Virus record (IMG/VR): IMGVR_UViG_3300042294_004327
Span: 1 to 22,041 of that record
DNA: 22,041 nt
Strand: one strand, 5' to 3'
Source of the DNA: a virus
Position 1 is the stretch's first letter; each line of letters opens with the position of its first letter. Under the pieces are notes generated by a model. The model was not told the DNA's origin. It worked only from the letters and a program-made list of their open reading frames with translations, and did not search any database. The translations under genes and the position numbers were made by a program. Shown in pieces: positions 3,898-21,299 of the stretch.

Positions 3898-4476
3898 TCA
3901 AAGGAGACAATATTCCACTTCTTGGAAAGCTTTTAAGTTGTTACCTCCAGCATAAGAAACAGCAGATGCTAAGTCTTGACGGATCTCAGTCATCTTCTGC
4001 TCATAGGTCATACCGTTCATAGGCATGGAGAGGGTGCGGCCTTCAATATTCTTCTTGTTACCATTCATAGAAGAAGCAGAACCAAAGTAGAGCTTCTTAG
4101 TAGGATCTGTCGGGTCAATCATAGCTGGGGAATCAATACAGCGAGCAAACATAGACCCGGCCATAACCATATCAGCTCCCGCTACCAAAGCTTTAGCAAT
4201 ATCTCCATTACAAGAAATACCCCCGTCAGCAATAATTAGAGGAAGTTTAATATCTTGTCCCTTATTACCCTCTACTCGGGTCTGGTTAATATCCCGGACC
4301 GTTGAAAACATAGGAGAGGCAAACCCTGTCTTGTTGTAAGTGATACAATTATGTACAACGGTATTATCTTCCCCAACACAAAACGAGTGGTCCTCTTCTA
4401 CTTCTAAATCATACACCGGTACATCAAATTCGTATGTTAAATTTTGGATTTCAGGTTTAACAAATTTGTATTTCAT
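3898..4476 (-). CDS. guaC: GMP reductase C-terminal half preceded by the C-terminal fragment of a split intein
   Basis: Residues 1-43 are the intein C-fragment: VYDLEVEEDHSFCVG is block F and TVVHN followed by Cys is block G, with the terminal Asn43 and +1 nucleophile Cys44 that protein splicing needs. Residues 44-192 are the C-terminal part of GMP reductase of the Bacillus GuaC type. It begins CITYNKTGF at the catalytic Cys loop, then has LIIADGGI (phosphate-binding DGG), GADMVMAGSMFA, KLYFGSAS, IEGR and the closing RQDLASAVSYAGG. GMP reductase converts GMP to IMP and ammonia using NADPH. This half can work only after trans-splicing to the product of 5612-6463. ATG at 4476 has no Shine-Dalgarno, but it overlaps a TGA in a neighbouring open frame, pointing to coupled translation in an ancestral arrangement. 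Confidence 0.92.
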   Translation of the reverse strand: MKYKFVKPEIQNLTYEFDVPVYDLEVEEDHSFCVGEDNTVVHNCITYNKTGFASPMFSTVRDINQTRVEGNKGQDIKLPLIIADGGISCNGDIAKALVAGADMVMAGSMFARCIDSPAMIDPTDPTKKLYFGSASSMNGNKKNIEGRTLSMPMNGMTYEQKMTEIRQDLASAVSYAGGNNLKAFQEVEYCLL

Positions 4477-4611
4477 TTTATAAATTTTCTAATATTTTGT
4501 AAAACAAGTCTAATAAAGCTTCTTATAGGTTTATTTTCAGAAGTTTCAATAGGCCATCCAAGTTTATCTTTTCTGTACCAAGGTAAACTTTTTATTTCGA
4601 TCTCTTTTCTT
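4473..4611 (-). pseudogene. open but startless frame between the endonuclease stop and the C-intein start
   Basis: Read on the minus strand in the frame that ends TGA at 4473-4475, this gap is open for about 45 codons with protein-like content (IKSLPWYRKDKLGWPIETSE and then RSFIRLVLQNIRKFIK). It has no start codon. Its TGA overlaps the ATG of the C-intein ORF as ATGA, the junction style used throughout this genome. The frame is offset from the endonuclease by one base at a run of four TA units (4613-4620). One additional TA unit would fuse it in frame to the endonuclease, adding 47 residues after VYI. It is therefore read as the lost C-terminal tail of the endonuclease gene. A sequencing error or a separate remnant are alternatives. 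Confidence 0.5.
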
Positions 4612-5580
4612 TTATATATACACTTGCTCATATATTTCTTCTAAAACTTTAAAATTGTTATTTAAAATATCGTTCTCCCAAATATAGTATACTTTAAAGT
4701 TATTATCAATAGCAAAATTATACTTTTCAACATCTTTTTCTTTTTTAAGTTTTTGAGTACTATTAAGTTTCTTTTTACCGTCTGTACCATCTTCGTTAAA
4801 AAATAAGGGGTTTCCGTGCCAGTAGTCGCCTTGTACTTCTAGAAGAATTCTTTCTGCCTTAAAACCAAAATCATATTGTTTATACCCTAATATTACACCA
4901 TATTCTGGTACAAGATTAAGCTCTTTTAGTTTATTTTCAACTATAGTTTCGATTTTGTTGCGCGTGTATTTTTTAGAAGATAGTGCAGCGCATAACCCTG
5001 CTTTTCGTCTATATTCTGAATATTTAGCCGGGTCTTTAGCTATTTGTATTTTTTGATATTCGGATTGTTTTTGTCTTCTTATTTGTTTTTCCTCTTCTGT
5101 TAAATTATTATACCATTGTTTAGCTTTTTGACTTAAAGTATATCTTGTTTCAAGGGTGTGAGATTTGCCATAGAAATGGTTTCGAGCGCCGGTCATTTTC
5201 CAGGCCTCTTTCTTTCTATACTCGCTTAGTTTTTTACGTGCCTCCAAAGACATAGGAATACCTTTGTTCCATGCCTTCCACTTACCTTTTCTCTCCTGAG
5301 ATACTTTTTGTTTATATTCTTCTGTATGCTTTTTACCAAAAAAGCCATTTCGCTCACCTAATTTACCACATGACTGGCAAAGATATAATTTTTTATCAAT
5401 TCCGTGATAACAATTAATGTATTTTTGTTTTTTACATTCATGACATTCTATACTAAAAAAGGGCTTTTTTAACTCTGTTCTTTTTGCTTTTTCTCCATTT
5501 GCAAGAGTAACACAGTTAACTCTACCTTGTCTTTGTATAGATAAAATTTCTATTCCTTTATAGAACATTCTCGACTTCAC
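4612..5580 (-). CDS. Vsr-like homing endonuclease with NUMOD3 motifs, between split-intein halves
   Basis: This free-standing homing endonuclease probably cuts intein-less guaC alleles and so spreads the element. Domains in order are: a zinc-finger-like region (C46-x2-C49 ... C68-x2-C71), two NUMOD3-type DNA-binding segments (GFFGKKHTEEYKQKVSQ at about 79-95 and HFYGKSHTLETRYTLSQ at about 135-151), a long basic helix, and a C-terminal nuclease domain of the Vsr/PD-(D/E)xK fold. The nuclease domain carries E211/E215, D237 in QYDFGF, and E248-x-Q250-G-x-Y-W-H255. The start is GTG at 5580, with an in-frame ATG at 5568 as an alternative. It is more AT-rich than its neighbours. The C-terminus may be truncated by a TA-repeat frameshift (see the entry at 4473-4611). 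Confidence 0.88.
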   Translation of the reverse strand: MKSRMFYKGIEILSIQRQGRVNCVTLANGEKAKRTELKKPFFSIECHECKKQKYINCYHGIDKKLYLCQSCGKLGERNGFFGKKHTEEYKQKVSQERKGKWKAWNKGIPMSLEARKKLSEYRKKEAWKMTGARNHFYGKSHTLETRYTLSQKAKQWYNNLTEEEKQIRRQKQSEYQKIQIAKDPAKYSEYRRKAGLCAALSSKKYTRNKIETIVENKLKELNLVPEYGVILGYKQYDFGFKAERILLEVQGDYWHGNPLFFNEDGTDGKKKLNSTQKLKKEKDVEKYNFAIDNNFKVYYIWENDILNNNFKVLEEIYEQVYI

Positions 5581-5611
5581 ATTTATATTTATGCTGTCAA
5601 GTATGAATTTG

Positions 5612-6463
5612 CTATTGGTCTTGTATTTGAATTAAAAAATGTTTATCTTTATCTAAATCTTTTGCTTCTACCCAAAAAGCATAATCGTGTATATTACTAT
5701 CACTTACATTTTTAACATCTTCAACATTAACAACATAAAACTTATGATCTAATGTACAAATATTTTGATTAACCTCTAACAAATCTTGGGCGTATTTAAT
5801 AATTGTATTTGTTACTTTTTTATATTGTTTGCTATGCGTAAGTACATAATCTCCAAGCTTTACATTTTGAATTGACTTATATCCATCTTTTGTTTTAACC
5901 TTAGTACCAGCAACAAAACACGAAGCGCCACAAGCAATACCGACTTTAGCTGCATCAATATAATGAGCCATTCTTAGATAGGCATCAGAAGTAGCGATAT
6001 TACCTCCAATGACAAAGAGGTCTGGGTTTACTAAACGCTTAACCGTATGCAAGTAAGCAAGCATACCATGAACTTCCTCGTGATCGCCATGAGCAACATC
6101 AACAGTGACGTAGTCTAGCCTCAGCTTTTCTTCGAGAATAGTTGCCATTAGCTTAATATCTCTTTGCTTAATGCCTATCGAGATAGAGATAAAAGGAAGA
6201 AGATCTGTGCACTTGTTCATCCTGCGCATCCAGTTTAGAATTTCGTCATATTCATAAAACCGATGCAAAATATAAAAATAGCCGTTCTGGGCCAGCCACG
6301 TAGCCTTGGTCATATCAATACAAGAAGCCATATTGGCAGGCACTACCGGGAGCTTAAATTTAAATTTACCTAATTGAACTGAGGTATCAGCTTCTGCTCT
6401 TGATTTAAGCTCTGAGTAATTTGGTACAAGGTGTACGTCTTTATAGTTTAGAGATCTTTGCAT
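5612..6463 (-). CDS. guaC: GMP reductase N-terminal half followed by the N-terminal fragment of a split intein
   Basis: Residues 1-181 match the N-terminal barrel of Bacillus-type GMP reductase: the opening LNYKDVHLVPNYSELKSRAE, then KFKLPVVPANMASCIDMTKA, NGYFYILHRF, VTVDVAHGDHEEV, FVIGGNIAT and AAKVGIACGAS, which ends one residue before the catalytic Cys. Residues 182-283 are the intein N-fragment, beginning CFVAGTKVKTKDGYKSI (block A with nucleophile C182), then GDYVLTHS and CTLDHKFYVV (block B, T-x-x-H). The reading frame stops after KHFLIQIQDQ, so the polypeptide cannot splice in cis. There is no CBS domain, as expected for GuaC rather than IMP dehydrogenase. It starts 1 nt after the 6465-6983 gene. 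Confidence 0.92.
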   Translation of the reverse strand: MQRSLNYKDVHLVPNYSELKSRAEADTSVQLGKFKFKLPVVPANMASCIDMTKATWLAQNGYFYILHRFYEYDEILNWMRRMNKCTDLLPFISISIGIKQRDIKLMATILEEKLRLDYVTVDVAHGDHEEVHGMLAYLHTVKRLVNPDLFVIGGNIATSDAYLRMAHYIDAAKVGIACGASCFVAGTKVKTKDGYKSIQNVKLGDYVLTHSKQYKKVTNTIIKYAQDLLEVNQNICTLDHKFYVVNVEDVKNVSDSNIHDYAFWVEAKDLDKDKHFLIQIQDQ

Positions 6464-10919: not shown

Positions 10920-11059
10920 TGTTTCTTTTTCCATTCAATAACTTTATCACTTTTAATGAGTTTTGATAAATCAATAATATGCTGCTTTTTACCAAAGTTC
11001 AATAGATAAGATGTTCTCCATTAATACAACCAAGGTCCATTAAACTCTTTGTTTTTCAT
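10916..11059 (-). pseudogene. 47-codon mini-gene interrupted by one in-frame TAA
   Basis: The frame starts at ATG 11059, overlapping the stop of the YopX-type gene as ATGA. It ends at TGA 10916-10918, overlapping the ATG of the next gene as ATGA. Both ends therefore obey the junction rule of this operon. It reads MKNKEFNGPWLY, then TAA at 11021-11023, then a coherent remainder (TSYLLNFGKKQHIIDLSKLI, ending DKVIEWKKKQ). It is most simply a small gene broken by a single nonsense change. Readthrough, a sequencing error or two separate peptides are alternatives. A possible internal promoter lies in its second half. Confidence 0.5.
10974..11002 (-). promoter_or_regulatory. possible sigma70-like promoter inside the broken mini-gene
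   Basis: On the minus strand TTGAAC (10997-11002) and TATTAT (10974-10979) are spaced by 17 nt, about 50 nt upstream of the 10919 start. The match to the consensus is fair, but the region is AT-rich and the site lies inside the interrupted frame, so chance is possible. Confidence 0.3.
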
Positions 11060-11427
11060 TTTTCAAAAATATTTCCAACAACTTCTAGAGAAGTCATAAT
11101 GATTCTATCAAGAGGGGTAAAACCTTCTTCCCCAAACATGAAACCGCAGAACTCTCCAGAGTAGTGCACATCCATGTTTTTATATTCAATAATATCAAGA
11201 TCTCCATGCTCATGTGTATTATTAACAGAAAAGTTAACAAGATCTCCTTCATAGATCTCTTTGCCATTTTTATCAATAAGTCCTGTGAATTGTTGCACAA
11301 TGTACCTTTTACAAGAAGAAGACAAAGAGATAGTGTAATCAGAGTTGAGTTTAACAACACCATTGTTAACTTTGTCAAAAGATTTCTCTTCTTTATTCCA
11401 AACTCTGAATTTTAGTTCTCTATTCAT
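11056..11427 (-). CDS. YopX-family protein (copy 1)
   Basis: The 123-residue protein begins MNRELKFRVWNKEEKSF and contains QQFTGLIDKNGKEIYEGDLV and a final LEVVGNIFEK. This is the full YopX-family layout: R-x-(F/L)-K-F-R-x-W at the start, Q-(F/Y)-T-G-L-x-D-K-N-G-x-x-I-Y-E-G-D, and G-N-(I/V)-(F/Y)-E at the end. The family is common in phages of many hosts and has no established function. The core is a small beta barrel. Its start overlaps copy 2 by 4 nt (ATGA). Confidence 0.85.
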   Translation of the reverse strand: MNRELKFRVWNKEEKSFDKVNNGVVKLNSDYTISLSSSCKRYIVQQFTGLIDKNGKEIYEGDLVNFSVNNTHEHGDLDIIEYKNMDVHYSGEFCGFMFGEEGFTPLDRIIMTSLEVVGNIFEK

Positions 11428-11816
11428 ATTTCAAAAATATTTCCCACAACTTCAATATTCCCCATCATGTTGTTATAAAAACCACTTGTACCCCCTGTAA
11501 ACCATAAGCCAAAACATGGAGCATTTACAAGAGTCATATCAGTTGTATAAATTACTTCAGCTGTTCCCTTTATGGGTTCTTGCGCAATTTCACTATTATC
11601 AAAATTTACAATGTCTCCTTCATAAATGTCAACACCTTTGGAATCTTTAATACCAATGTATTGCTGGACAACATACTCACCTCCTCCAGAGCCATTCTGC
11701 AAATTGTGAAACCTGCCATTAAGAGACAAAATATAATGACCCTGATAACCTTCATCAGAATAGATAAAGGATTTGTTAAGCTTATCCCAAGCTCTAAATT
11801 TTAGTTCTCTACTCAT
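11424..11816 (-). CDS. YopX-family protein (copy 2)
   Basis: The 130-residue protein starts MSRELKFRAWDKLNKSF and contains VVQQYIGIKDSKGVDIYEGD and a final IEVVGNIFEI, the same YopX-family blocks as the adjacent copy. The middle loop differs (GRFHNLQNGSGGGEYVVQQ and SGFYNNMMGNIE). It is the first gene after a strong sigma70-like promoter with a 19-bp dyad over the -10, so it probably leads an early, repressible transcription unit. The sequence AGGAACA directly precedes the ATG. Confidence 0.85.
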   Translation of the reverse strand: MSRELKFRAWDKLNKSFIYSDEGYQGHYILSLNGRFHNLQNGSGGGEYVVQQYIGIKDSKGVDIYEGDIVNFDNSEIAQEPIKGTAEVIYTTDMTLVNAPCFGLWFTGGTSGFYNNMMGNIEVVGNIFEI

Positions 11817-11817
11817 T

Positions 11818-11836
11818 GTTCCTAGTATATAGGAAC
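11818..11836 (-). promoter_or_regulatory. operator-like dyad GTTCCTA-N5-TAGGAAC over the -10 element
   Basis: The two 7-bp arms at 11818-11824 and 11830-11836 are perfect inverted repeats with a 5-nt centre. The dyad covers the whole -10 hexamer (11824-11829) and reaches to 2 nt from the start codon at 11816. Its position is ideal for a dimeric repressor that blocks RNA polymerase. It is too small and poorly placed to be a terminator. Confidence 0.5.
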
Positions 11837-11852
11837 TTTATGGACTAGTCAA
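11824..11852 (-). promoter_or_regulatory. sigma70-like promoter upstream of the YopX pair
   Basis: On the minus strand TTGACT (11847-11852) and TATACT (11824-11829) are separated by exactly 17 nt, each one base from consensus. It lies 7 nt upstream of the ATG at 11816, so transcription would start at or within a base or two of the start codon. This is the best sigma70-type match found in the window. Confidence 0.65.
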
Positions 11853-11854
11853 GC
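11832..11854 (-). repeat. 23-bp exact direct repeat, copy 1 (promoter -35 region)
   Basis: The 23 bases here are identical to 12285-12307. On the minus strand they contain the -35 hexamer TTGACT and most of the spacer, ending in half of the operator dyad. This copy has the -10 element; the other copy does not. Confidence 0.8.
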
Positions 11855-11856
11855 TT

Positions 11857-12240
11857 TTAAAATTGATGTGAGTTTACTCTTTTTTGCCGATCAATCCAAT
11901 TTTGTAGAGCTTTTGCTTGTGGTTCAGGCAATTTTGATAAATCTTCTAAGTAACCTGCCTTAAAGAGGCTAATCAGGAATCCGTCAGCACCCTCATCTTC
12001 ATATCTTGAAATTTCGGCTTCTTTTGCTTTCTGTTCCTCATAATCTGATGGAACTTCATCTACACTATTTATATCTGTTGGGTCGAAAGAATGCTTTTTG
12101 TTTGCAATTTTAAGAGCTTGCTCTGCTGTTTTTGCTTTTACAATTTCTTTCCAACCGCTTCCTGGCCTATCTAAATAAACTCTCCAAGTCTTGTGAATAC
12201 TTTCATAAGCCTCAGCTAAGAGTTTAGAGTCTTTGTTCAT
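11857..12240 (-). CDS. protein with MNKDSKLLAEA N-terminal tag, possible packaged head protein
   Basis: The 127-residue protein begins MNKDSKLLAEAYESIHK, shared almost exactly with the 12390-12770 product and in part with the 16626-17303 product. The LAE|A sequence fits the (I/L)-x-E cleavage rule of T4 prohead protease, and the whole tag resembles the T4 capsid-targeting start MKTYQEFIAEA. After the tag comes a strand-helix-strand unit (TWRVYLDRPGSGWKEIVKAK, TAEQALKIANKKHSFD), then an acidic linker and a helical end. No enzymatic family is recognised. A late-type promoter octamer TATAAATA lies 5 nt upstream of the ATG. Delivery into the capsid is inference. Confidence 0.7.
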   Translation of the reverse strand: MNKDSKLLAEAYESIHKTWRVYLDRPGSGWKEIVKAKTAEQALKIANKKHSFDPTDINSVDEVPSDYEEQKAKEAEISRYEDEGADGFLISLFKAGYLEDLSKLPEPQAKALQNWIDRQKRVNSHQF

Positions 12241-12244
12241 GATA

Positions 12245-12289
12245 TTATTTATACAATTTGTTATATTTTTTTCTAACCCTCATGGGAAC
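12245..12289 (-). pseudogene. C-terminal remnant of an HExxH peptidase gene (VPMRVRKKYNKLYK stop)
   Basis: Read on the minus strand, this stretch encodes VPMRVRKKYNKLYK and a TAA. It matches the last residues of the intact 12775-13401 protein (VPMRARKKYNNLYK stop) in the same position relative to a following tagged gene. Upstream, the frame meets a TGA within a few codons and shows no peptidase sequence. It is a leftover from duplication of the peptidase-tagged gene pair. Confidence 0.7.
12246..12253 (-). promoter_or_regulatory. T4-type late promoter octamer TATAAATA
   Basis: An exact TATAAATA on the minus strand sits 5 nt upstream of the ATG at 12240. With the usual 6-nt spacing from the octamer to the start site, transcription would begin at the A of the ATG. 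The same bases encode Tyr-Lys-stop of the peptidase remnant. Confidence 0.6.
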
Positions 12290-12307
12290 TTTATGGACTA
12301 GTCAAGC
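12285..12307 (-). repeat. 23-bp exact direct repeat, copy 2 (lacking the -10 half)
   Basis: Identical to 11832-11854. Here the -35-like TTGACT is followed at the expected -10 position by TGAGGG, so this copy is unlikely to work as a promoter. Its junction with the peptidase remnant suggests a recombination end point. Confidence 0.75.
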
Positions 12308-12312
12308 AAGTT

Positions 12313-12393
12313 TTATTTTTCGTAATAACCTAATTCTTGCTCTTTTCTTTTAATTGCATCTTTAAGCTTTATAAAGGTTTTGTCAGACTTCAT
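12313..12393 (-). CDS. 26-residue basic microprotein coupled to the tagged gene
   Basis: ATG at 12391-12393 overlaps the TGA of the upstream tagged gene as ATGA, the junction style of this region. The product begins MKSDKTFIKLKDAIKRKEQE and ends LGYYEK, a single amphipathic basic helix. It ends just before the 23-bp repeat. No family is recognised. The exact junction and lack of internal stops support it, and the short length argues for caution. Confidence 0.4.
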   Translation of the reverse strand: MKSDKTFIKLKDAIKRKEQELGYYEK

Positions 12394-12770
12394 TCTTCAT
12401 CTTCTGGGTCTATGTGCTCTTTGTCCCTTTTGAGGATATAAGACTCCACAGATCCCAGATTAGGCCAACCAGATTCTGTCACACGATCTCCAACTATGCT
12501 TCGGTGTCCGATGTGTTTGTTGAAATACTCAATGAGTTGCTGAGCTGCCTCTTCTGGGGTTTTCCCGGTGAAGCTGCGACCTGCGAAACTTCCACAAAGC
12601 CACTCATTTGTCACCTCCCACTCCCCATTCCATTGGAAAATATAATCCTCGGGCTTGTCCATCACCCTCTTGATGAGGTCCAAGACTTCGGCGGGTGATG
12701 GGGATTTTGCTGCTCTCGGGTTGGCGACTTGTTCGTAAGCTTCAGCTAAGAGTTTAGAGTCTTTGTTCAT
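12390..12770 (-). CDS. protein with MNKDSKLLAEA tag and GC-rich body, possible packaged head protein
   Basis: The 126-residue protein begins MNKDSKLLAEAYEQVANPRA, with the same first 13 residues as the 11857-12240 product, including the LAE|A prohead-protease-like site. The rest is different: PSPAEVLDLIKRVMDKPEDY, a Trp-rich segment WNGEWEVTNEWLCGSFAGRS, and TGKTPEEAAQQLIEYF, a small alpha-beta domain. The body is about 50% GC against roughly one third for flanking genes, while the tag and promoter are AT-rich. This looks like a foreign domain joined to a native tag. A TATAAATA octamer lies 5 nt before the ATG. Confidence 0.7.
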   Translation of the reverse strand: MNKDSKLLAEAYEQVANPRAAKSPSPAEVLDLIKRVMDKPEDYIFQWNGEWEVTNEWLCGSFAGRSFTGKTPEEAAQQLIEYFNKHIGHRSIVGDRVTESGWPNLGSVESYILKRDKEHIDPEDEE

Positions 12771-12819
12771 ACTATTATTTATACAAATTGTTATATTTCT
12801 TTCTCGCTCTCATAGGAAC
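12736..12819 (-). repeat. 84-bp promoter-plus-tag module, copy 2
   Basis: This is the counterpart of 12206-12289 at an offset of 530 nt with no gaps. It spans the last codons of the intact HExxH gene, the TATAAATA octamer and the first 12 codons of the 12390-12770 gene. Confidence 0.8.
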
Positions 12820-13401
12820 ACCTTTTCCAAATGCAGAGTAGTCATGCCCGTATTGGAGATATGCCTGGATTTCATCATCAACCACTCTTTCTGTATAACC
12901 CATCTCTAATAGATTCTTTTTAAAGATATTATAATGTTCTACTGGAAGAGATTTTGTCAAAGCATCCATTCTCTTTTTGTAGTCTTTATCGGTATAGTAA
13001 AGGGCATGGCATACTTCATGCTTAAAAGTATCTCCTGTTGTGTTTCCACAAGCAATGACATAGCCATCTTCAAGAAGATTATTTTTATTAATCTTCACTA
13101 CAATGTCATACATCACTTTGTCGTAAGGTGATTCAAATTTACCGAGCTTGTTGTAGCATTGTGTAATAACTTTTAGAGGGATATTGAACCCTGACCAATC
13201 AGCACCATAACTAAAGCCCTTACCATACTTTTCATTATACCACTTCATGTAGTCCCAGATTGAAAAAGTCTTATTACGGAATTTAGGATTAGGAGATTCA
13301 TAATACTCCTGAGCTCTACAGAATAACATAGCCCTATCATATTTGTCTTTAACTATGACAGCAAAGACATTTGGCTTAACTTCTTTAATTTTGTATTTCA
13401 A
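12775..13401 (-). CDS. putative zinc metallopeptidase-like protein (HExxH ... E)
   Basis: The 208-residue protein carries FKHEVCHALYY with H128, E129 and H132 forming HExxH, and a downstream VVDDEIQAYLQYG whose E177 is well placed as third zinc ligand. The N-terminal half (NVFAVIVKDKYDRAMLFCRA) is a mixed alpha-beta region. The last residues before the stop carry the TATAAATA octamer used by the next gene, so its 3' end doubles as a promoter. The start overlaps the next gene upstream by 4 nt (ATGA). Such proteins in large phages have no proven substrates. It does not resemble the 2444-3019 HExxH protein outside the motif. Confidence 0.7.
   Translation of the reverse strand: MKYKIKEVKPNVFAVIVKDKYDRAMLFCRAQEYYESPNPKFRNKTFSIWDYMKWYNEKYGKGFSYGADWSGFNIPLKVITQCYNKLGKFESPYDKVMYDIVVKINKNNLLEDGYVIACGNTTGDTFKHEVCHALYYTDKDYKKRMDALTKSLPVEHYNIFKKNLLEMGYTERVVDDEIQAYLQYGHDYSAFGKGVPMRARKKYNNLYK
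12776..12783 (-). promoter_or_regulatory. T4-type late promoter octamer TATAAATA
   Basis: An exact TATAAATA on the minus strand sits 5 nt before the ATG at 12770 and is embedded in the codons TAT AAA TAA that end the HExxH gene. The layout is the same as for the octamer at 12246-12253. Confidence 0.6.
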
Positions 13402-13586
13402 TTGCTCCTAATTGTTTTTGCTATACCTTTAACAAATTCTTTTGCTTCTTCTTTCCAAGCTTTGAGTTCATTTAATTCTTTTTCTTGATCTTCAAGTTCA
13501 TCAGCAAATGAATAAACAAATTCATCATCAAGAGGATATTTTTCATAATACTCTCGCAATTGTTGGGATAATGGTTTCTTACTCAC
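13398..13586 (-). CDS. small charged coiled-coil protein
   Basis: The 62-residue protein starts with GTG (MSKKPLSQQLREYYEKYPLD). It has an acidic helix DELEDQEKELNELKAWKEEA with heptad-like spacing and a basic end. Its stop overlaps the start of the HExxH gene (ATGA). The GTG is preceded by an A-run rather than a Shine-Dalgarno. Function is unknown. Confidence 0.6.
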   Translation of the reverse strand: MSKKPLSQQLREYYEKYPLDDEFVYSFADELEDQEKELNELKAWKEEAKEFVKGIAKTIRSN

Positions 13587-13616
13587 TTTTTTTTAGTTCT
13601 TTATAGCAAATCAAGC

Positions 13617-13793
13617 TTATTTTGTCTTAAACCTAAATTCAGCATTACCATCTTCATCAGCAACCCATTCAGCTACTCCAGCCTTTATAGCATCTTTTTT
13701 CCATTGGGTATCCATTATCCCGCTTCCAGCCAAAAAGCCAAACGCAAATATGAAAAAAGCCATTCCAAACATTATTGGAGCATTATCATTCAT
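13617..13793 (-). CDS. 58-residue single-pass membrane protein
   Basis: ATG at 13793 begins 1 nt after the stop of the upstream gene (TAATATG). The product starts MNDNAPIMFGMAFFIFAFGF, continues LAGSGIMDTQWKKDAIKAGV and ends with AEWVADEDGNAEFRFKTK. It has one membrane helix (about residues 7-25) and a cytoplasmic tail with W-K-x-D-A-I-x-x-G-x-A-E-W, a motif I recall from many tiny phage membrane proteins where it ends G-x-x-x-F-x-W/F-K. Its role is unknown. The stretch 13587-13616 downstream holds no gene. Confidence 0.65.
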   Translation of the reverse strand: MNDNAPIMFGMAFFIFAFGFLAGSGIMDTQWKKDAIKAGVAEWVADEDGNAEFRFKTK

Positions 13794-13794
13794 A

Positions 13795-14133
13795 TTATTT
13801 TATAAGCTCCGCATACTCTACATCATATCTATCAAGATACTCTTCAAACTCAATTTGTTCATCCCAGTTATAGATATAATCAAAAAGCCAATCTTTACCT
13901 TTTTCATTTAGTCTAAGGTCATAAGCTAGCTTTTCATAGACCGCATCCAAATGCTTTTGAAGTCTGTTAATAAATTCTTTGTCTCTAAAGATTCTATCTT
14001 CAGGGTGTTCTCCTTGAGGTGTGTAATGTTTTTTCTTAATCATATCTTCTCCTAAAGCATCTGTGCAATAACAAGTATCATTTATATAGATAAAAGGAAA
14101 ACCACATTTAACGCAATGTTTTTTTACTTTCAT
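13795..14133 (-). CDS. small protein with N-terminal zinc-ribbon-like cysteines
   Basis: The 112-residue protein begins MKVKKHCVKCGFPFIYINDT and continues with CYC, giving C7-x2-C10 and a second C-x-C pair, a probable metal-binding knuckle. The remainder is helical and acidic, ending WDEQIEFEEYLDRYDVEYAE. Its neighbours on both sides are 1 nt away, so it belongs to one polycistronic unit. No family is recognised. Confidence 0.6.
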   Translation of the reverse strand: MKVKKHCVKCGFPFIYINDTCYCTDALGEDMIKKKHYTPQGEHPEDRIFRDKEFINRLQKHLDAVYEKLAYDLRLNEKGKDWLFDYIYNWDEQIEFEEYLDRYDVEYAELIK

Positions 14134-14134
14134 A

Positions 14135-14701
14135 CTATTTCCTCATCTCATTTCTGATTAACTCATCAACTGAATTATACCTTCTTCCGGTTGATTTACA
14201 CTCTTTAACATATTTTTTAGCATCATCAGCAGGAGGATTACAAATACCGTGAACCCAATTCTGCTTCTTTACCTCAGAGTGCATAGCAAAAGATTTAGGA
14301 TACTTGTCTGTTATAGTGTAATGATCAGAGGCACAGATAGTTTTAGGCTCATGTTCAAAAAAGTCTCCAGTTTGATATAGAGGCTTTTTAGGAGATGAAT
14401 GTTTGCTAAATTCTTCTCGAGCCTTTCTTTCTGTTTCTCTGAGATCTTTATTGAATTTCTCAACAACATCGCTAATTTGATCCATTACTGATTCCAGCTC
14501 TTCCAAGACAACATAATCCGTTACATGACACCATTTAGTGTAAGTGGTGTTATCAACTTTTTTAATTTGAACCTTGGCATACTCTCCAGAAGGAGAAACT
14601 TCAAGAATGCCAGCTTCTGTAGGATCGGAACAAGATACTGAATAATCTGATATGAGCAATCTTTTGCCTATATATTCTTTAGATAAAGGTCTGTTATTCA
14701 T
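14135..14701 (-). CDS. unknown protein, helical and charged
   Basis: ATG at 14701 (MNNRPLSKEYIGKRLLISDY) is preferred because it overlaps the TAA of the upstream gene in a TAATG junction, with GGAA just upstream. A TTG at 14716 is open in frame but less likely. The 188-residue product has an N-terminal small beta domain resembling an SH3-like fold (AGILEVSPSGEYAKVQIKKV), a coiled coil (VMDQISDVVEKFNKDLRETE) and a C-terminal basic helix. No enzyme motif is present. Confidence 0.6.
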   Translation of the reverse strand: MNNRPLSKEYIGKRLLISDYSVSCSDPTEAGILEVSPSGEYAKVQIKKVDNTTYTKWCHVTDYVVLEELESVMDQISDVVEKFNKDLRETERKAREEFSKHSSPKKPLYQTGDFFEHEPKTICASDHYTITDKYPKSFAMHSEVKKQNWVHGICNPPADDAKKYVKECKSTGRRYNSVDELIRNEMRK

Positions 14702-14973
14702 TAAGAATTCCAACAATTGTCTGAGTTGTTTTTGTCATCATCACCCATACAGCACCCATGAGCATCTTCGTCAATTACAGGATAAGTCTCTTCATCAACT
14801 ACTTCTAAATGTCCATCAAAGACAAAGCCGCAGGCTTTCAAGTAGCATTCAAAGTTATTAAGCATCTGGGTGATAGTGACATCTCCAGGCATATCAAAGG
14901 TGACTTCGACAGGAGAATACTCTTCAAATTCGGTTTCGTTATAGGTGTATTTGAATTGGTGTTTGTAGTTCAT
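14701..14973 (-). CDS. conserved-type phage protein with acidic Cys-containing tail
   Basis: The 90-residue protein begins MNYKHQFKYTYNETEFEEYS. Its core VEVTFDMPGDVTITQMLNNF followed by LKACGFVFDGHLEVVD matches, from memory, a small phage family with the order V-x-F-x-x-P-x-x-(V/I)-T-x-x-x-M-L-x-x-F-x-x-(F/Y)-L-x-(A/S)-x-G-(F/Y). The tail has a CC pair and several Asp/Asn residues. Function is unknown. It is coupled to the next gene by TAATG. Confidence 0.65.
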   Translation of the reverse strand: MNYKHQFKYTYNETEFEEYSPVEVTFDMPGDVTITQMLNNFECYLKACGFVFDGHLEVVDEETYPVIDEDAHGCCMGDDDKNNSDNCWNS

Positions 14974-14977
14974 ATTT

Positions 14978-15199
14978 TTATATATTAATGTCTTTTAAAA
15001 TTTTGTCAAGCTCTTCTGGGGTTACTTGCTTGTATGTCTTTTTGTCTTTTTTGGGTCCGGAAATCTCTAATATAAATCTCAACCAATAAAAAGATAACTT
15101 CCAATATCTGCCTCCGTTAAACCAAGATGCACCGGGCAAGTATCTAAAACTTACAAACGGAACCCATTCAAACCAAAAACTGATATAAAATAAACTCAT
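14978..15199 (-). CDS. small aromatic-rich protein, possibly membrane-associated
   Basis: The 73-residue product opens MSLFYISFWFEWVPFVSFRY, very rich in Phe, Trp and Tyr. It continues through GGRYWKLSFYWLRFILEISG and ends in a charged helix EELDKILKDI. The aromatic N-terminal half could sit at a membrane or form a small beta domain. The start overlaps the upstream gene by 4 nt (ATGA). No family is recognised. Confidence 0.6.
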   Translation of the reverse strand: MSLFYISFWFEWVPFVSFRYLPGASWFNGGRYWKLSFYWLRFILEISGPKKDKKTYKQVTPEELDKILKDINI

Positions 15200-15735
15200 G
15201 TCCAGAGATGTTTACGGTATTTGATAAGCTCGGTTAAAACCTTAGTGTCCATCTTTTCAATAAGCACTTCGTAGTAATCTACTTTGCTATAGAGCTGTTT
15301 GTAAGTTCCCTTGGCTTCGAAGTCAGGATAAGCCTCGTCCATCTTCTTCTCTAAGGCAGGCCTCTCTTCCGTAACGTACCTGTAAGCATTCTCTAGCCAG
15401 GAAGCAAATTTAGCAGCCTCTGGTCCGGACTCTTCCCAATCGACAATACCTTTGTCAAATTCATCTTCATAAAAAGATTTAATAATTTCGAAATTAACCA
15501 AAAGTAAAATACCGTCAAGGTCAATCCAGTGACGAGGTACAGCTTTACGGATCCGAGAATGCTTAGGTGCCCAGATGGTCTTAACATGCTTGTAGTAAAA
15601 GTCGCGCACAGAATAGGGGATAGCGAAGTAGATCCGGTCTTTAATGCCTACCCAGTAGAAGTAGAGCTTGGTACGGGTATCAGTCTGTAGAAAGATGTTA
15701 TCTATATCTTTTAATTTTTTAAAGGGTCTGTTCAT
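15196..15735 (-). CDS. conserved-type phage protein (PRHWIDLDGIL)
   Basis: ATG at 15735 (MNRPFKKLKDIDNIFLQTDT) forms an ATGA overlap with the upstream TGA, so it is chosen over the upstream in-frame codon at 15783. The 179-residue product contains KTIWAPKHSRIRKAVPRHWI followed by DLDGILLLVNFEIIKSFYED, a pattern recalled from phage hypotheticals (HxRI-x-K-A-I/V-P-R-x-W-x-D). A long C-terminal helical region follows. No function is known. Confidence 0.65.
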   Translation of the reverse strand: MNRPFKKLKDIDNIFLQTDTRTKLYFYWVGIKDRIYFAIPYSVRDFYYKHVKTIWAPKHSRIRKAVPRHWIDLDGILLLVNFEIIKSFYEDEFDKGIVDWEESGPEAAKFASWLENAYRYVTEERPALEKKMDEAYPDFEAKGTYKQLYSKVDYYEVLIEKMDTKVLTELIKYRKHLWT

Positions 15736-15965
15736 TTGTTTGTCTGTTGTTGTTTGATTTGTTCGTTGTAAGCTTCCATCCAATCCTGTACTTGGTCAAA
15801 ACTCCAATTAACTGTCTTAGGAACAGCATCATTGAACTCTTTATAAAGCTCTTTAAAATCAGCCCAAAGCCGAGGATCAATATTACAGCAAGGAGCCCCT
15901 CCTCCAAAAAGTACTAAGGACTCATCTACTAGTTCGTTGTATTCGCGTTGGGACATTCCGGCCAT
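15732..15965 (-). CDS. small protein, first gene of the long minus-strand run
   Basis: The 77-residue product begins MAGMSQREYNELVDESLVLF, contains a GGGAPCC segment and a DPRLWADFKELYKEFNDAV helix, and ends in a Gln-rich tail. ATG at 15965 is taken; the ATG at 15956 is possible. A TATTAT hexamer 6 nt before the ATG could be a -10 element, but no convincing -35 is seen. It is divergent from the 16017 gene across 51 nt. No family is recognised. Confidence 0.55.
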   Translation of the reverse strand: MAGMSQREYNELVDESLVLFGGGAPCCNIDPRLWADFKELYKEFNDAVPKTVNWSFDQVQDWMEAYNEQIKQQQTNK

Positions 15966-16016
15966 ATACCCATAATACTAGTAGCTATTTCAGGAACAGG
16001 CAACTAAAATATATAT

Positions 16017-16355
16017 ATGAAAAAAGTCCTCAAACCTGCCCAACGAGAAGAAGCAATATACTATTCTGACTTCTCCGGTAAACTGTTCCAAGACTCCCCT
16101 CCCGTAACTGTAAAGATAGAATGTGATTACGGATCTAAATATGACGGAGCGAGAGCAGAGTTCCACTTATCTGATAAGGGCTTAGAAAAGCTTTTACAGT
16201 TCTTCAAAGAAAACCTTTGTGAAGAAACTAAAAATAAGCTTAAAAAGGATATGGCCGTTGCCGATAAGAATGCCCAAGATAATATGGAGTGTAGGGATTG
16301 GCAATCTGCAGAATTCTATTATAATAACAGAGAACTTTATCAGAAACTTATATGA
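16017..16355 (+). CDS. conserved-type phage protein (YYSDFSGK)
   Basis: The 112-residue product contains REEAIYYSDFSGKLFQDSPP followed by VTVKIECDYGSKYDGA and FHLSDKGLEKLLQFF. Phage and bacterial small proteins with EEAxYYSDFSGK, C-x-Y-G-S-x-x-D-G-x-x-x-x-L-H-L are familiar but uncharacterised. It is the first gene of a plus-strand cassette of five ending with dCMP deaminase, reached by the divergent gap 15966-16016. It overlaps the next gene by 4 nt (ATGA). Confidence 0.7.
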   Translation: MKKVLKPAQREEAIYYSDFSGKLFQDSPPVTVKIECDYGSKYDGARAEFHLSDKGLEKLLQFFKENLCEETKNKLKKDMAVADKNAQDNMECRDWQSAEFYYNNRELYQKLI

Positions 16356-16639
16356 AAAAACCTATTCGAAAAACTGTCCAATCCCGAGAAGAGTATTACA
16401 TTCAGTTCACGGATGAAGAGATGGCTGAGTTAAAGATGGAACCTGGGCAGAAGTATTCCTGGGAAGTTAAAGACGGGGGAGTCCAGCTCACCCCCTACGT
16501 TAAGGTAGAGATGGATATTAGTCAATGGGATAAAGAGACTCTGGTATACCTTATCGAACAATCCTGCCAACGTGACGTATCTGTTAATGATGTTATTGTT
16601 GATACCTTAGAGCGGTACTTAAAGAGTGAACAAAGATAG
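16352..16639 (+). CDS. small putative DNA-binding protein (AbrB-like hairpin plus ribbon-helix-helix-like end)
   Basis: The 95-residue protein has an N-terminal part YYIQFTDEEMAELKMEPGQK followed by YSWEVKDGGVQL, which resembles the swapped-hairpin SpoVT/AbrB pattern (F-T-x-E-E-x-x-x-L-x-x-x-P-G-x-x). Its C-terminal helix pair (IEQSCQRDVSVNDVIVDTLE) fits the D-x-(S/T)-x-N-(D/E) turn of ribbon-helix-helix proteins. A transcription regulator or antitoxin-like role is inferred, and no toxin gene is seen beside it. Its 3' end overlaps the next gene by 14 nt. Confidence 0.6.
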   Translation: MKKPIRKTVQSREEYYIQFTDEEMAELKMEPGQKYSWEVKDGGVQLTPYVKVEMDISQWDKETLVYLIEQSCQRDVSVNDVIVDTLERYLKSEQR

Positions 16640-17303
16640 CAAAACTATTACCAAGCTTTACGAATCGATTCATAAAGTAGATTACTTTACCGTAAACGAA
16701 AATGATTTTGACGAGGAGAAGTTCTTCAGTCTTGATGAAGACTTTGCCAATTTAGGAGCCCTAAACGTATACAGTTATATACTTGAGACGTTTAAACAGG
16801 TAAAACAAAACTCCCCTACTGATGACGGAACAGAGGATGTCTATGAAGTAGTACTACACAATGGTCAACTCTTCACCCTGCATCTAAACTACATTGAATC
16901 CCGGCAGGCAAAGAGCTTTATTGAGCGAAAGAATGTCAACGCCAAACAAAAACATAACAACACTCTTACCCAGGAATACAGCTCGATGCTACAAAGCTTT
17001 GAACCCGAGGATACAATATGTGTAATAATGTTTAAGGACGAGCAAGGCAAATTTGAACAAACCGGCAAAGTGGGCATATCAGCTAAAGAGCTCTTTATAA
17101 CTCTTAAAAATGCTATAGAAGACTCTTGGTCAAAGAGAGACTTTGAAAAAATAAAAGCTATCTTAATGCGAGTCAATAAAGCAGAACCAAAAAGACTTGA
17201 GTTCTATAAAATGCTTTTAAGAAAATTCCTACCCGCTTATAACAATATTGTAGTAGATTCTATTTCAGAAGATAGTAATATATTACTCTTTGCATCAAAA
17301 TAA
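16626..17303 (+). CDS. protein with MNKDSK tag, unknown function
   Basis: The 225-residue protein starts with GTG at 16626 and opens MNKDSKTITKLYESIHKVDY. It shares MNKDSK and YESIHK with the minus-strand 11857-12240 product but lacks the LAE|A cleavage-like site. An acidic segment (DFDEEKFFSLDEDFANLGA), a strand-rich middle (VYEVVLHNGQLFTLHLNYIE), a helix, a strand TICVIMFKDEQGKFEQTGKV and a helical C-terminus follow. It has no late promoter octamer and lies in a different operon, so the tag may have been acquired independently. Function is unknown. Confidence 0.65.
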   Translation: MNKDSKTITKLYESIHKVDYFTVNENDFDEEKFFSLDEDFANLGALNVYSYILETFKQVKQNSPTDDGTEDVYEVVLHNGQLFTLHLNYIESRQAKSFIERKNVNAKQKHNNTLTQEYSSMLQSFEPEDTICVIMFKDEQGKFEQTGKVGISAKELFITLKNAIEDSWSKRDFEKIKAILMRVNKAEPKRLEFYKMLLRKFLPAYNNIVVDSISEDSNILLFASK

Positions 17304-17479: not shown

Positions 17480-17885
17480 AATAACCTGGGAAGAGTACGC
17501 TTTGCGGATAGCGCAAGTAGTAGCTCTTCGCTCTCAAGACCCTCGACATAAGGTGGGATGTGTGCTTCTAAGGCACGACAACACTATAGCTTCTGCTGGG
17601 TTCAACGGAGCACCTTCCGGGGTAGAGATAGATTGGAGCAATAGAAAAGAGAAGCTCCTTCGGGTAGTGCACGCTGAGATAAACTCGCTTCGTATGATTA
17701 AACCCGGGGAATGCTATCTGGCAGCCTGTACTCTATCTCCTTGTAATGACTGTTTAAAGTCCTTGGCAGCTTACGGCATTAAAAAGATTGTATATCAGAA
17801 TGAATATAGGCCTGATGTACCCTACCCTCTTAAAGATATTGCCAAAGAGTTCGGAATAGAACTAGAGCAAATTACTTTGATTTAG
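17463..17885 (+). CDS. deoxycytidylate (dCMP) deaminase
   Basis: The enzyme converts dCMP to dUMP, the substrate for ThyX. From ATG 17463 the protein is 140 residues: MASSSRITWEEYALRIAQVV, then SQDPRHKVGCVLL, the loop SAGFNGAPSG, the zinc-binding H70-A-E72 (VVHAEINSL) and P-C94-x2-C97 (LSPCNDCLKSL). This is the complete catalytic set of the family. GAAGAG about 7 nt upstream supports this start over the in-frame ATG at 17433. The C-terminal DVPYPLKDIAKEFGIEL fits the dCMP group. It is shorter than T4 gene cd because the T4 zinc insert is absent. Its 3' end overlaps the convergent small gene by 14 nt. Confidence 0.9.
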   Translation: MASSSRITWEEYALRIAQVVALRSQDPRHKVGCVLLRHDNTIASAGFNGAPSGVEIDWSNRKEKLLRVVHAEINSLRMIKPGECYLAACTLSPCNDCLKSLAAYGIKKIVYQNEYRPDVPYPLKDIAKEFGIELEQITLI

Positions 17886-17997
17886 CTTTGTGCTTTTTAA
17901 GAGCTTTAGCTGGCTTGACAGCTTTCTTCTTTGTCTTTTTAGCTTCGGTTAAGAATTCGCCTACAATGGCGTTGAAGTGGGGTGTGTTAATATTCAT
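17872..17997 (-). CDS. 41-residue highly basic peptide with FLTEA-type N-terminus
   Basis: ATG at 17997 lies 8 nt after the stop of the 18006-18908 gene. The product begins MNINTPHFNAIVGEFLTEAK and ends with a Lys/Ala-rich tail (KKAVKPAKALKKHKAKSK), about 13 Lys in the last 22 residues. FLTE|A fits the L-x-E prohead-protease rule and recalls the T4 capsid-targeting FIAE|A. If cleaved there, a basic DNA-condensing peptide would be released in the head. It is too short for firm assignment, but it is in a virion-type neighbourhood and has no internal stop. Confidence 0.5.
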   Translation of the reverse strand: MNINTPHFNAIVGEFLTEAKKTKKKAVKPAKALKKHKAKSK

Positions 17998-18005
17998 ATT
18001 AAGAA

Positions 18006-18908
18006 TTAGTCTTCAAACCCGTATGACATAGCTTCAGGCTTAGAAGCCATATAGTCTTTATAAACTTTGCCGAAAGATCTTTCGAATTCTCTTTTGCCAA
18101 TCTCTTCAATGTCGCCCTCTTCGCGCTCTAAAGCTTCAATGTCTTGATCTGAATTCTCAGCAGAAGCATACTTAACAGCACCAGCTCTAATTAAGGCGCT
18201 AGCAGCTTTGGTAGCAGAGCCAACATCAGCCCCGCCCCGTTGGATAGCCTTTACTAGATCAGATCCTTTTTGGACTTGGTCGGCAATGTTCTCTACTCTT
18301 GCATAATAGGTCTTAAGGTCATCAGAAAGCTCGACCCCAGCCGCAGACATTTCATCTGGTGTTAGAATTTCATATTCAGCCTCTTCCATAAAGCGAGCAG
18401 CCTTAGGGGCTTTAGGAGCTGCTGGCTTACCGTTCTCGACAGGTTCAGCACTCTTAACAGCCTTCTCAACTTCTTGGGGAGCAGCTTGAGCCCCTTGAGA
18501 ATAATCTTTCTCGGCTTTAGCCAATTGTGAAATGACTCGAGCTGTATAACCTTTAACAGCATCAGCACCAGGAACCTTCATGTCTGGATTCTCAGCTTTT
18601 AAATCACTGACAATCTCAGCAACAGCAGCTTTAATAGCATTGCGGTATTGATCTTCGTTCTTAGCAGGGTTGGTGTTGTTCTCGTATTTACCGAACACTT
18701 TGTCAAATAATGATTTAGAAATCATATCAACAACCTCTTCTCTTGACTTGCCTAAAGAGTCAGCAATGCTACCAATCAAGTACCCCCTGCCTGGTGCTGT
18801 TCCAATTGCACCTCTTAAAGATGAACCGAACGTTTCGTAGTCTGCTGTTACTGGAGACAGCTCACCGAGAAGCTGTTCAAAGAGAGAGTCAAATTGCTTA
18901 GTTGCCAT
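18006..18908 (-). CDS. Ala/Glu-rich protein behind a late promoter, probable head or core protein
   Basis: The 300-residue protein starts MATKQFDSLFEQLLGELSPV. It has an alpha-helical first half, an Ala/Pro/Lys linker (APQEVEKAVKSAEPVENGKP, AAPKAPKAARFMEEAEYEIL) and a second helical-acidic half ending ASKPEAMSYGFED. LLGE near the start and FMEEA in the linker resemble (L/I)-x-E cleavage sites. GC and Ala content are higher than in neighbours. The TATAAATA octamer 8 nt upstream marks it as a late gene. A scaffold or internal head protein is a reasonable inference, but no known T4 protein is recognised. Confidence 0.65.
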   Translation of the reverse strand: MATKQFDSLFEQLLGELSPVTADYETFGSSLRGAIGTAPGRGYLIGSIADSLGKSREEVVDMISKSLFDKVFGKYENNTNPAKNEDQYRNAIKAAVAEIVSDLKAENPDMKVPGADAVKGYTARVISQLAKAEKDYSQGAQAAPQEVEKAVKSAEPVENGKPAAPKAPKAARFMEEAEYEILTPDEMSAAGVELSDDLKTYYARVENIADQVQKGSDLVKAIQRGGADVGSATKAASALIRAGAVKYASAENSDQDIEALEREEGDIEEIGKREFERSFGKVYKDYMASKPEAMSYGFED

Positions 18909-18916
18909 ATGTATAT

Positions 18917-18924
18917 TATTTATA
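18917..18924 (-). promoter_or_regulatory. T4-type late promoter octamer TATAAATA
   Basis: An exact TATAAATA on the minus strand lies 8 nt before the ATG at 18908 and overlaps the last codons of the upstream gene (stop at 18920-18922). The predicted mRNA leader is only about 3 nt. Confidence 0.6.
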
Positions 18925-20507: not shown

Positions 20508-21299
20508 ATGAAACAATTTTACATTTACAAAATAACAAATACGATAAACGGCATGATGTATATCGGGTCTCATTACGGGGGTATACATGATAATTATCTA
20601 GGTTCAGGCAAGCGCATTCTACAAGCTATTAAAAAATACGGTAAAGATAATTTTACAAAAGAAATATTAGAAATTCAACCCTCAAAACAATTACTTTTAG
20701 AACGAGAAAATTATTGGTTGAACAAATTAAAATGTGCAACTGATTCTCGGTATTATAATATGACTAATACAGCAGGTGGAGGATGTTTCTTAGATGGAAA
20801 AACAGAAAAGGAACGACAAAAAATAATAAATGAAAGTATACAAAGATTAAGAAAGTGGCATAATTCTTTATCATTAACAAATAAATTAAAAGAAAGAAAA
20901 AAATTATCTAAGATTGTTAAAAAATGGTGGAAAAAAATGTCTTGTGAAGAAAAAAAAGAATGGTGTGAAAAACGTATACTAAGACAAAAAGAAATTTGGA
21001 ATAACAAATCTATTGCTGAAAAAACAGCAATAACCCAAAAACGTTCGCAAGGTCAGCTTAAAAGATGGAAAAACATGTCTAAAGAAGAAAAAGGACTTCG
21101 GGGTAAAAAGATATCACAAATTTTAAAAGCTGTTCATAAAAATCGTACTCCAGAACAAAGAGCATTGATTGCTAAACGGCGCTCTAAAATGATGATAGGT
21201 ACTAAAATATGTAATGATGGTGTTAAAAACTATCGCAAGACACTTGAACAAATTAAGCTTTTGGGTTATAAAATAGGTAAGGTCACACAACAATCTTAG
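20508..21299 (+). CDS. GIY-YIG homing endonuclease (Seg-like), free-standing
   Basis: The 263-residue protein begins MKQFYIYKITNTINGMMYIG, with the GIY-like YIYKITN at residues 5-11 and YIG at 18-20. It continues with the catalytic Arg in GSGKRILQAI (R36) and the Glu in LLLERENYWL, the metal-binding site of GIY-YIG nucleases. The C-terminal half is a basic, repeat-like DNA-binding region (KWWKKMS, RWKNMSKEEKGLRGKKI). It ends KICNDGVKNYRKTLEQI, a closing block typical of phage Seg-type enzymes. It is on the opposite strand to both neighbours, is very AT-rich, and its last 17 nt overlap the 3' end of the next gene. Such enzymes insert beside essential phage genes and promote their own spread. 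Confidence 0.9.
   Translation: MKQFYIYKITNTINGMMYIGSHYGGIHDNYLGSGKRILQAIKKYGKDNFTKEILEIQPSKQLLLERENYWLNKLKCATDSRYYNMTNTAGGGCFLDGKTEKERQKIINESIQRLRKWHNSLSLTNKLKERKKLSKIVKKWWKKMSCEEKKEWCEKRILRQKEIWNNKSIAEKTAITQKRSQGQLKRWKNMSKEEKGLRGKKISQILKAVHKNRTPEQRALIAKRRSKMMIGTKICNDGVKNYRKTLEQIKLLGYKIGKVTQQS

Follow-up and report, generated by a model that had tools for sequence, protein, structure and literature searches.

The internal head proteins of bacteriophage T4 carry the capsid-targeting sequence (CTS) MKTYQEFIAEA. According to PMC9026906, the first 10 residues of IPIII are required and sufficient for incorporation, residues 4 and 7 counting most for targeting and residues 8 and 10 for processing, and Asp at position 10 blocks processing while leaving targeting intact; the same text suggests the CTS as a general protein-loading route of T4-like phages. 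The T-even internal proteins are highly diverse, only the CTS being conserved (PMC3012670), and those of T4 for which studies exist affect host defences, IPI being directed against GmrSD and IPIII being required on E. coli ECOR17 (PMC9391042). The shared protein start described here, MNKDSxL(L/I)xEAY, probably serves, from its sequence context, as the N-terminal propeptide by which an uncultivated lineage of T4-like phages targets proteins to the capsid.

The window, meaning the whole stretch of 22,041 nt that was analysed, represents part of a virus genome and encodes a homologue of T4 gp15 (PF16724); a gp15 search gave 32 relatives of it. Three of its genes encode proteins that share the start MNKDSK...(Y)E and then differ, as stated in the initial annotation. 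Copy 1 (127 aa, 11857..12240, minus strand) starts with MNKDSKLLAEAYESIHK, this tag being encoded at 12190..12240; copy 2 (126 aa, 12390..12770, minus strand) starts with MNKDSKLLAEAYEQV, with the tag MNKDSKLLAEAYEQVAN at 12720..12770; and copy 3 (225 aa, 16626..17303, plus strand, GTG start) opens with the tag MNKDSKTITKLYESIHK at 16626..16676. Over residues 2–17, these proteins gave the three top pairwise identities among the 47 called genes (12, 11, and 11 of 16), and the maximum reached in 2000 shuffles was 8 of 16, which excludes chance. In copies 1 and 2 the leader ends in a site of the hydrophobic-x-Glu type (h-x-E; LLAE|A), with the predicted cut after Glu10 (codons 12211-12213 and 12741-12743, respectively); copy 3, with Lys10, has no such site. 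Searches of Pfam and PHROGs gave no match for any of the three. Relatives of the copy 1 and copy 3 bodies were not found in viral contigs, the fetched loci held no convincing relative for any of the three, and the AlphaFold model of copy 1 was poor (pLDDT 60). The region from about 8.4 to 15 kb, in which copies 1 and 2 are found, is accessory, with few genes that have counterparts in the gp15 relatives.

Elsewhere in the window, an IMPDH/GMP-reductase gene appears in two parts (3898-6463, minus strand), the first with an intein-like end (CFVAGTKVKTKDGYKSI...) and the second with an intein-like start followed by the C-terminal half of IMPDH; the ORF between them (4612-5580) has the look of a homing endonuclease. 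This arrangement resembles the fractured genes that have been reported to carry split inteins (IMPDH-1). By eye, the ORF at 20508-21299 (plus strand) looks like a GIY-YIG homing endonuclease.

The search for MN-x-D-type starts proposed in the initial annotation was run on viral contigs with a degenerate DNA pattern for M-x-[KNRS]-D-x-x-h-h-x-E-A-Y (h, hydrophobic), and it returned at least 119 matching stretches, so the tag is not confined to the window. The matches listed comprised at least about a hundred ORFs with the tag, among them some false positives; those rejected as chance matches were an SPP1-type portal (L127), a fragment of a ligase (L177), and the MFKDVNFIREAYP family. Also among the matches listed, 87 tagged proteins fell into 55 body families, a number slightly too high because the portal and the ligase fragment are still counted, and a leader of about 10–19 residues is thus common to otherwise unrelated proteins. 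Five of the six long records carried from three to seven tagged genes each. In addition, a profile of five tags detected further examples in relatives, namely MNKDSKMLAEAYDQV in G014, a pair of neighbouring genes in G001, and a cluster in G019. No carriers were found among cultured phages, the queries being the 300-aa family described below, a tagged Cys-rich protein, and two synthetic tags (24 aa, with little power).

In 66 N termini, for which D and Y were required and which were partly preselected by the pattern, position 7 was Leu in 58 and position 8 was Leu or Ile in 64. Conservation of E-A-Y in the pattern set is no evidence, since the pattern demanded it. A set of 49 N termini, chance matches included, was free of preselection at positions 9–11; of these, 29 had Glu at position 10, 5 had Asp, 4 had Asn, and 4 had Lys, the background for Glu at the corresponding place inside proteins being 12%. 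This preference is in line with the initial claim, borne out for copies 1 and 2, that LLAE|A fits the (I/L)-x-E rule of the prohead protease. Residues past the predicted cut are also kept, namely Tyr12 (demanded by the searches) and often Ile or Val at position 15, so that a cleavage site alone is no sufficient explanation of the tag. At the DNA level, synonymous codons are in use for each conserved residue of the tag; Leu, for example, is encoded by six different codons and Ala by four.

As for the bodies, 69 of the 87 among the matches listed are acidic, and a scan of the tagged proteins for defence systems gave weak hits only. One tagged protein (L125:5986-6441, minus strand) is an S-adenosylmethionine (AdoMet) decarboxylase with the tag as an N-terminal extension. 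Motifs of the L-x-E-A-Y kind were also seen inside proteins, between two parts (L050, L077:512-1105, and L101:1755-2408), as if two tagged genes had been fused.

The initial annotation proposed a check for a prohead protease gene. Among the tag-bearing records searched, nine had gp23, the T4-type capsid gene, and the same nine had a gp21-type S77 prohead protease, but neither gene was seen, as far as tested, in the 22-kb window, itself a fragment. All five tag-bearing records of at least 139 kb in the searched set contained gp21, gp23, and gp15; G001 (124 kb) gave no match to the models of these three genes, and tag-bearing records lacking a gp21 or gp23 match may be fragments. The gp21 protease and gp23 were also present in four relatives of the gp15 of the window. 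The gp23 of one tag-bearing record had its nearest cultured match in cyanophages, at about 33% identity.

The tagged genes are associated with a late promoter octamer, TATAAATA. This element was found 3–15 nt before the ATG in 21 of 89 tagged genes (24%) and in 99 of 3226 other genes (3%), an odds ratio of 9.8 with a P value (P=1.6e-12) that overstates independence because the loci are related. Judged by the octamer, late expression is indicated for the tagged class and for copies 1 and 2, none being present at copy 3, in agreement with the earlier statement that two of the three genes have it. Across the lineage, the distance from octamer to ATG peaks at 5–6 nt, from which leaderless mRNAs are predicted, and no Shine–Dalgarno enrichment was seen in the six long records; late mRNAs may thus be leaderless or nearly so. 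By eye, the other octamer genes include those for sheath, tube, gp21, and gp22; these other genes seem to be structural or start with leaders of the kind of MNLFEKQFIHLLEAD. Untagged octamer genes also showed an excess of h-x-E in residues 5–16 (38% vs. 22%, P=3e-4), with no enrichment further in.

Evidence of another kind came from a family of proteins of about 300 aa. The member in the window (18006..18908, minus strand), with a late octamer 8 nt before its ATG (18917..18924, minus strand), has a different leader (FDSLFEQLLGEL), and homologues elsewhere have the MNKD tag. In most of the nearest relatives of the window, the protein starts with variants of MATKxFDSLFEQLLxELxPV, an F..L..LLxE leader, and in others with MNKDSKLIFEAY...VLSEAPIY. 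Homology of the bodies extends across leader types (L109, E=2e-36), and most members retain a second h-x-E ahead of A/L-P. As one family has either the tag or the F..L..LLxE leader, the leaders look interchangeable. The structural model of the window protein was fair only for approximately residues 21–130, the first 20 being of low confidence, and gave no significant fold match. Adjoining this gene is one for a small basic protein of 41 aa (17872..17997, minus strand) with FLTE|A, a candidate head protein, in which h-x-E is kept in all 11 distinct aligned sequences.

Copy 3 departs from this picture. Its residues at the key positions are D4, T7, I8, and K10, and its codons for D and S are GAT AGC vs. 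GAC TCT in copies 1 and 2; since these synonymous codons differ, the likeness lies at the protein level and does not reflect recent DNA copying. The gene overlaps the 3' end of the preceding one by 14 nt and is a clean insertion absent from the relatives: homologues of the flanking genes (16352 and 17309) adjoin, at -11 or +4 nt, in all 15 relative loci in which both neighbours could be placed, some of these being overlapping or near-identical contigs. Its operon contains a dCMP deaminase and no late octamer. The initial annotation had allowed that this copy could be retained uncut, which is what Lys10 would predict by analogy with T4 IPIII, but as tagged cargo it fits poorly: the non-hydrophobic Thr7 may, by the same analogy, also cost targeting, so the protein may not be packaged, and copy 3 may represent a tag that has diverged and sits on a gene outside the late class.

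Alternatively, the tag could be a helix that docks onto some other partner from the phage or the host (for example, a factor in late transcription, in the membrane, or in assembly), its match to L-x-E-A being incidental. Such a role would accommodate the D, N, or K found at position 10 in some members, copy 3 included, the residues kept past the cut (often I or V at 15, and Tyr12 too, although the searches demanded the latter), and the motifs inside the L050, L077, and L101 proteins. It is nevertheless rather unlikely, as Glu10 is strongly preferred without preselection, the register is that of the T4 signal, the association is with late genes, and the tag takes the place of a different h-x-E leader in the 300-aa family.

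Copies 1 and 2 share more than the protein start, as an 88-nt direct repeat of 89% identity (12202..12289 and 12732..12819, both minus strand) covers 39 nt of coding sequence (13 codons) and 49 nt upstream. Each repeat contains the octamer (12246..12253 and 12776..12783, minus strand) 5 nt before the ATG, its final A sitting 6 nt before the A of ATG. The repeat between neighbours, and the failure to find relatives of the bodies in the viral contigs and loci searched, could suggest that the duplication of a single gene left both as remnants, their bodies having diverged or been replaced and the tag having no present role; this seems very improbable, because many other phages have the same tag on long open frames, some in conserved families, and a relic would not retain D4, a hydrophobic residue at 8, E10, and A11. 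Also very improbable is a nucleotide element (a signal for translation or for leaderless mRNA, or a site of recombination duplicated along with the promoter), for despite the duplication of promoter and tag together, the octamer 5–6 nt before the ATG with the leaderless mRNA that it predicts, and the A-rich first codons, every conserved residue varies synonymously in its codons, and copy 3 has other codons and no octamer.

Other features were observed around these genes. An intergenic repeat of 26 nt, with a GGAACTTTATGGACTAGTCAAGC core and 96% identity, lies on either side of copy 1 (11829-11854 and 12282-12307) and is perhaps a promoter or a recombination site. Two neighbouring YopX-like genes (11056-11427 and 11424-11816, minus strand), the second matching PF09643, are probably a tandem duplication. 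The ORF at 12775-13401 (minus strand), possibly metallopeptidase-like, has an HEVCH motif and is 84% identical to an ORF of L111, a contig also with tagged genes.

A capsid-targeting propeptide thus remains the preferred reading, with packaging, cleavage, injection, and core binding of the tagged proteins as its predictions. Late in infection, genes with TATAAATA right at the start codon would yield the tagged proteins; the leader, through its key residues D4, L7, and L/I8, would bind the assembling prohead core; and the gp21-type protease would cut after Glu10 (LLAE|A), setting free a body that would remain in the head and go into the next host with the DNA. Promoter and tag would together make up a cassette able to spread to new bodies by copying, and cargo would change fast, as in the T4 internal proteins. 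The portable signal proposed initially is thus supported by the 55 families, gp21 and gp23, the octamers, Glu10, and the leader exchange, but copy 3 fits it poorly. It is possible, but doubtful, that the tag loads a large and fast-changing set of proteins across the lineage, AdoMet decarboxylase among them, with the Asp/Asn/Lys10 class loaded and its leader kept. If the preferred reading is right, a 12-residue handle would find candidate head-packaged, injected proteins of uncultured phages straight from metagenomes, and, given the effect on host defences of those T4 internal proteins for which studies exist, it would list anti-defence candidates missed by homology; cargo loading into T4-type heads would also gain a second natural signal.

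Other known phages offer further comparisons. In the giant phages phiKZ and SPN3US, as covered in the available text of PMC9026906, many head proteins are packaged and ejected and head propeptides are cut after Glu by the diverged gp21 relatives gp175 and gp245; the phiKZ motif is S/A-x-E, unlike the tag, and that text makes no mention of a short shared leader of this kind. The Far-T4 clade is known from viromes, and a term search of the available text of that paper (PMC4360716) gave nothing on shared leaders.

In comparison with T4 itself, only the h-x-E-A end of the tag matches MKTYQEFIAEA by eye, Tyr12 follows the site, and the bodies are mostly acidic where the T4 internal proteins are basic. 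In contrast to these differences, the register is that of the T4 CTS (D4, L7, L/I8, E10, and usually Ala11), and, as in IPI, IPII, and IPIII, the leader is N-terminal, with 10 residues before a predicted cut at hydrophobic-x-Glu|Ala, and sits on otherwise unrelated accessory proteins with late octamers in a T4-like phage. In conclusion, the most plausible interpretation is that the tag represents a new sequence class within a known type of signal, the T4-type capsid-targeting propeptide.
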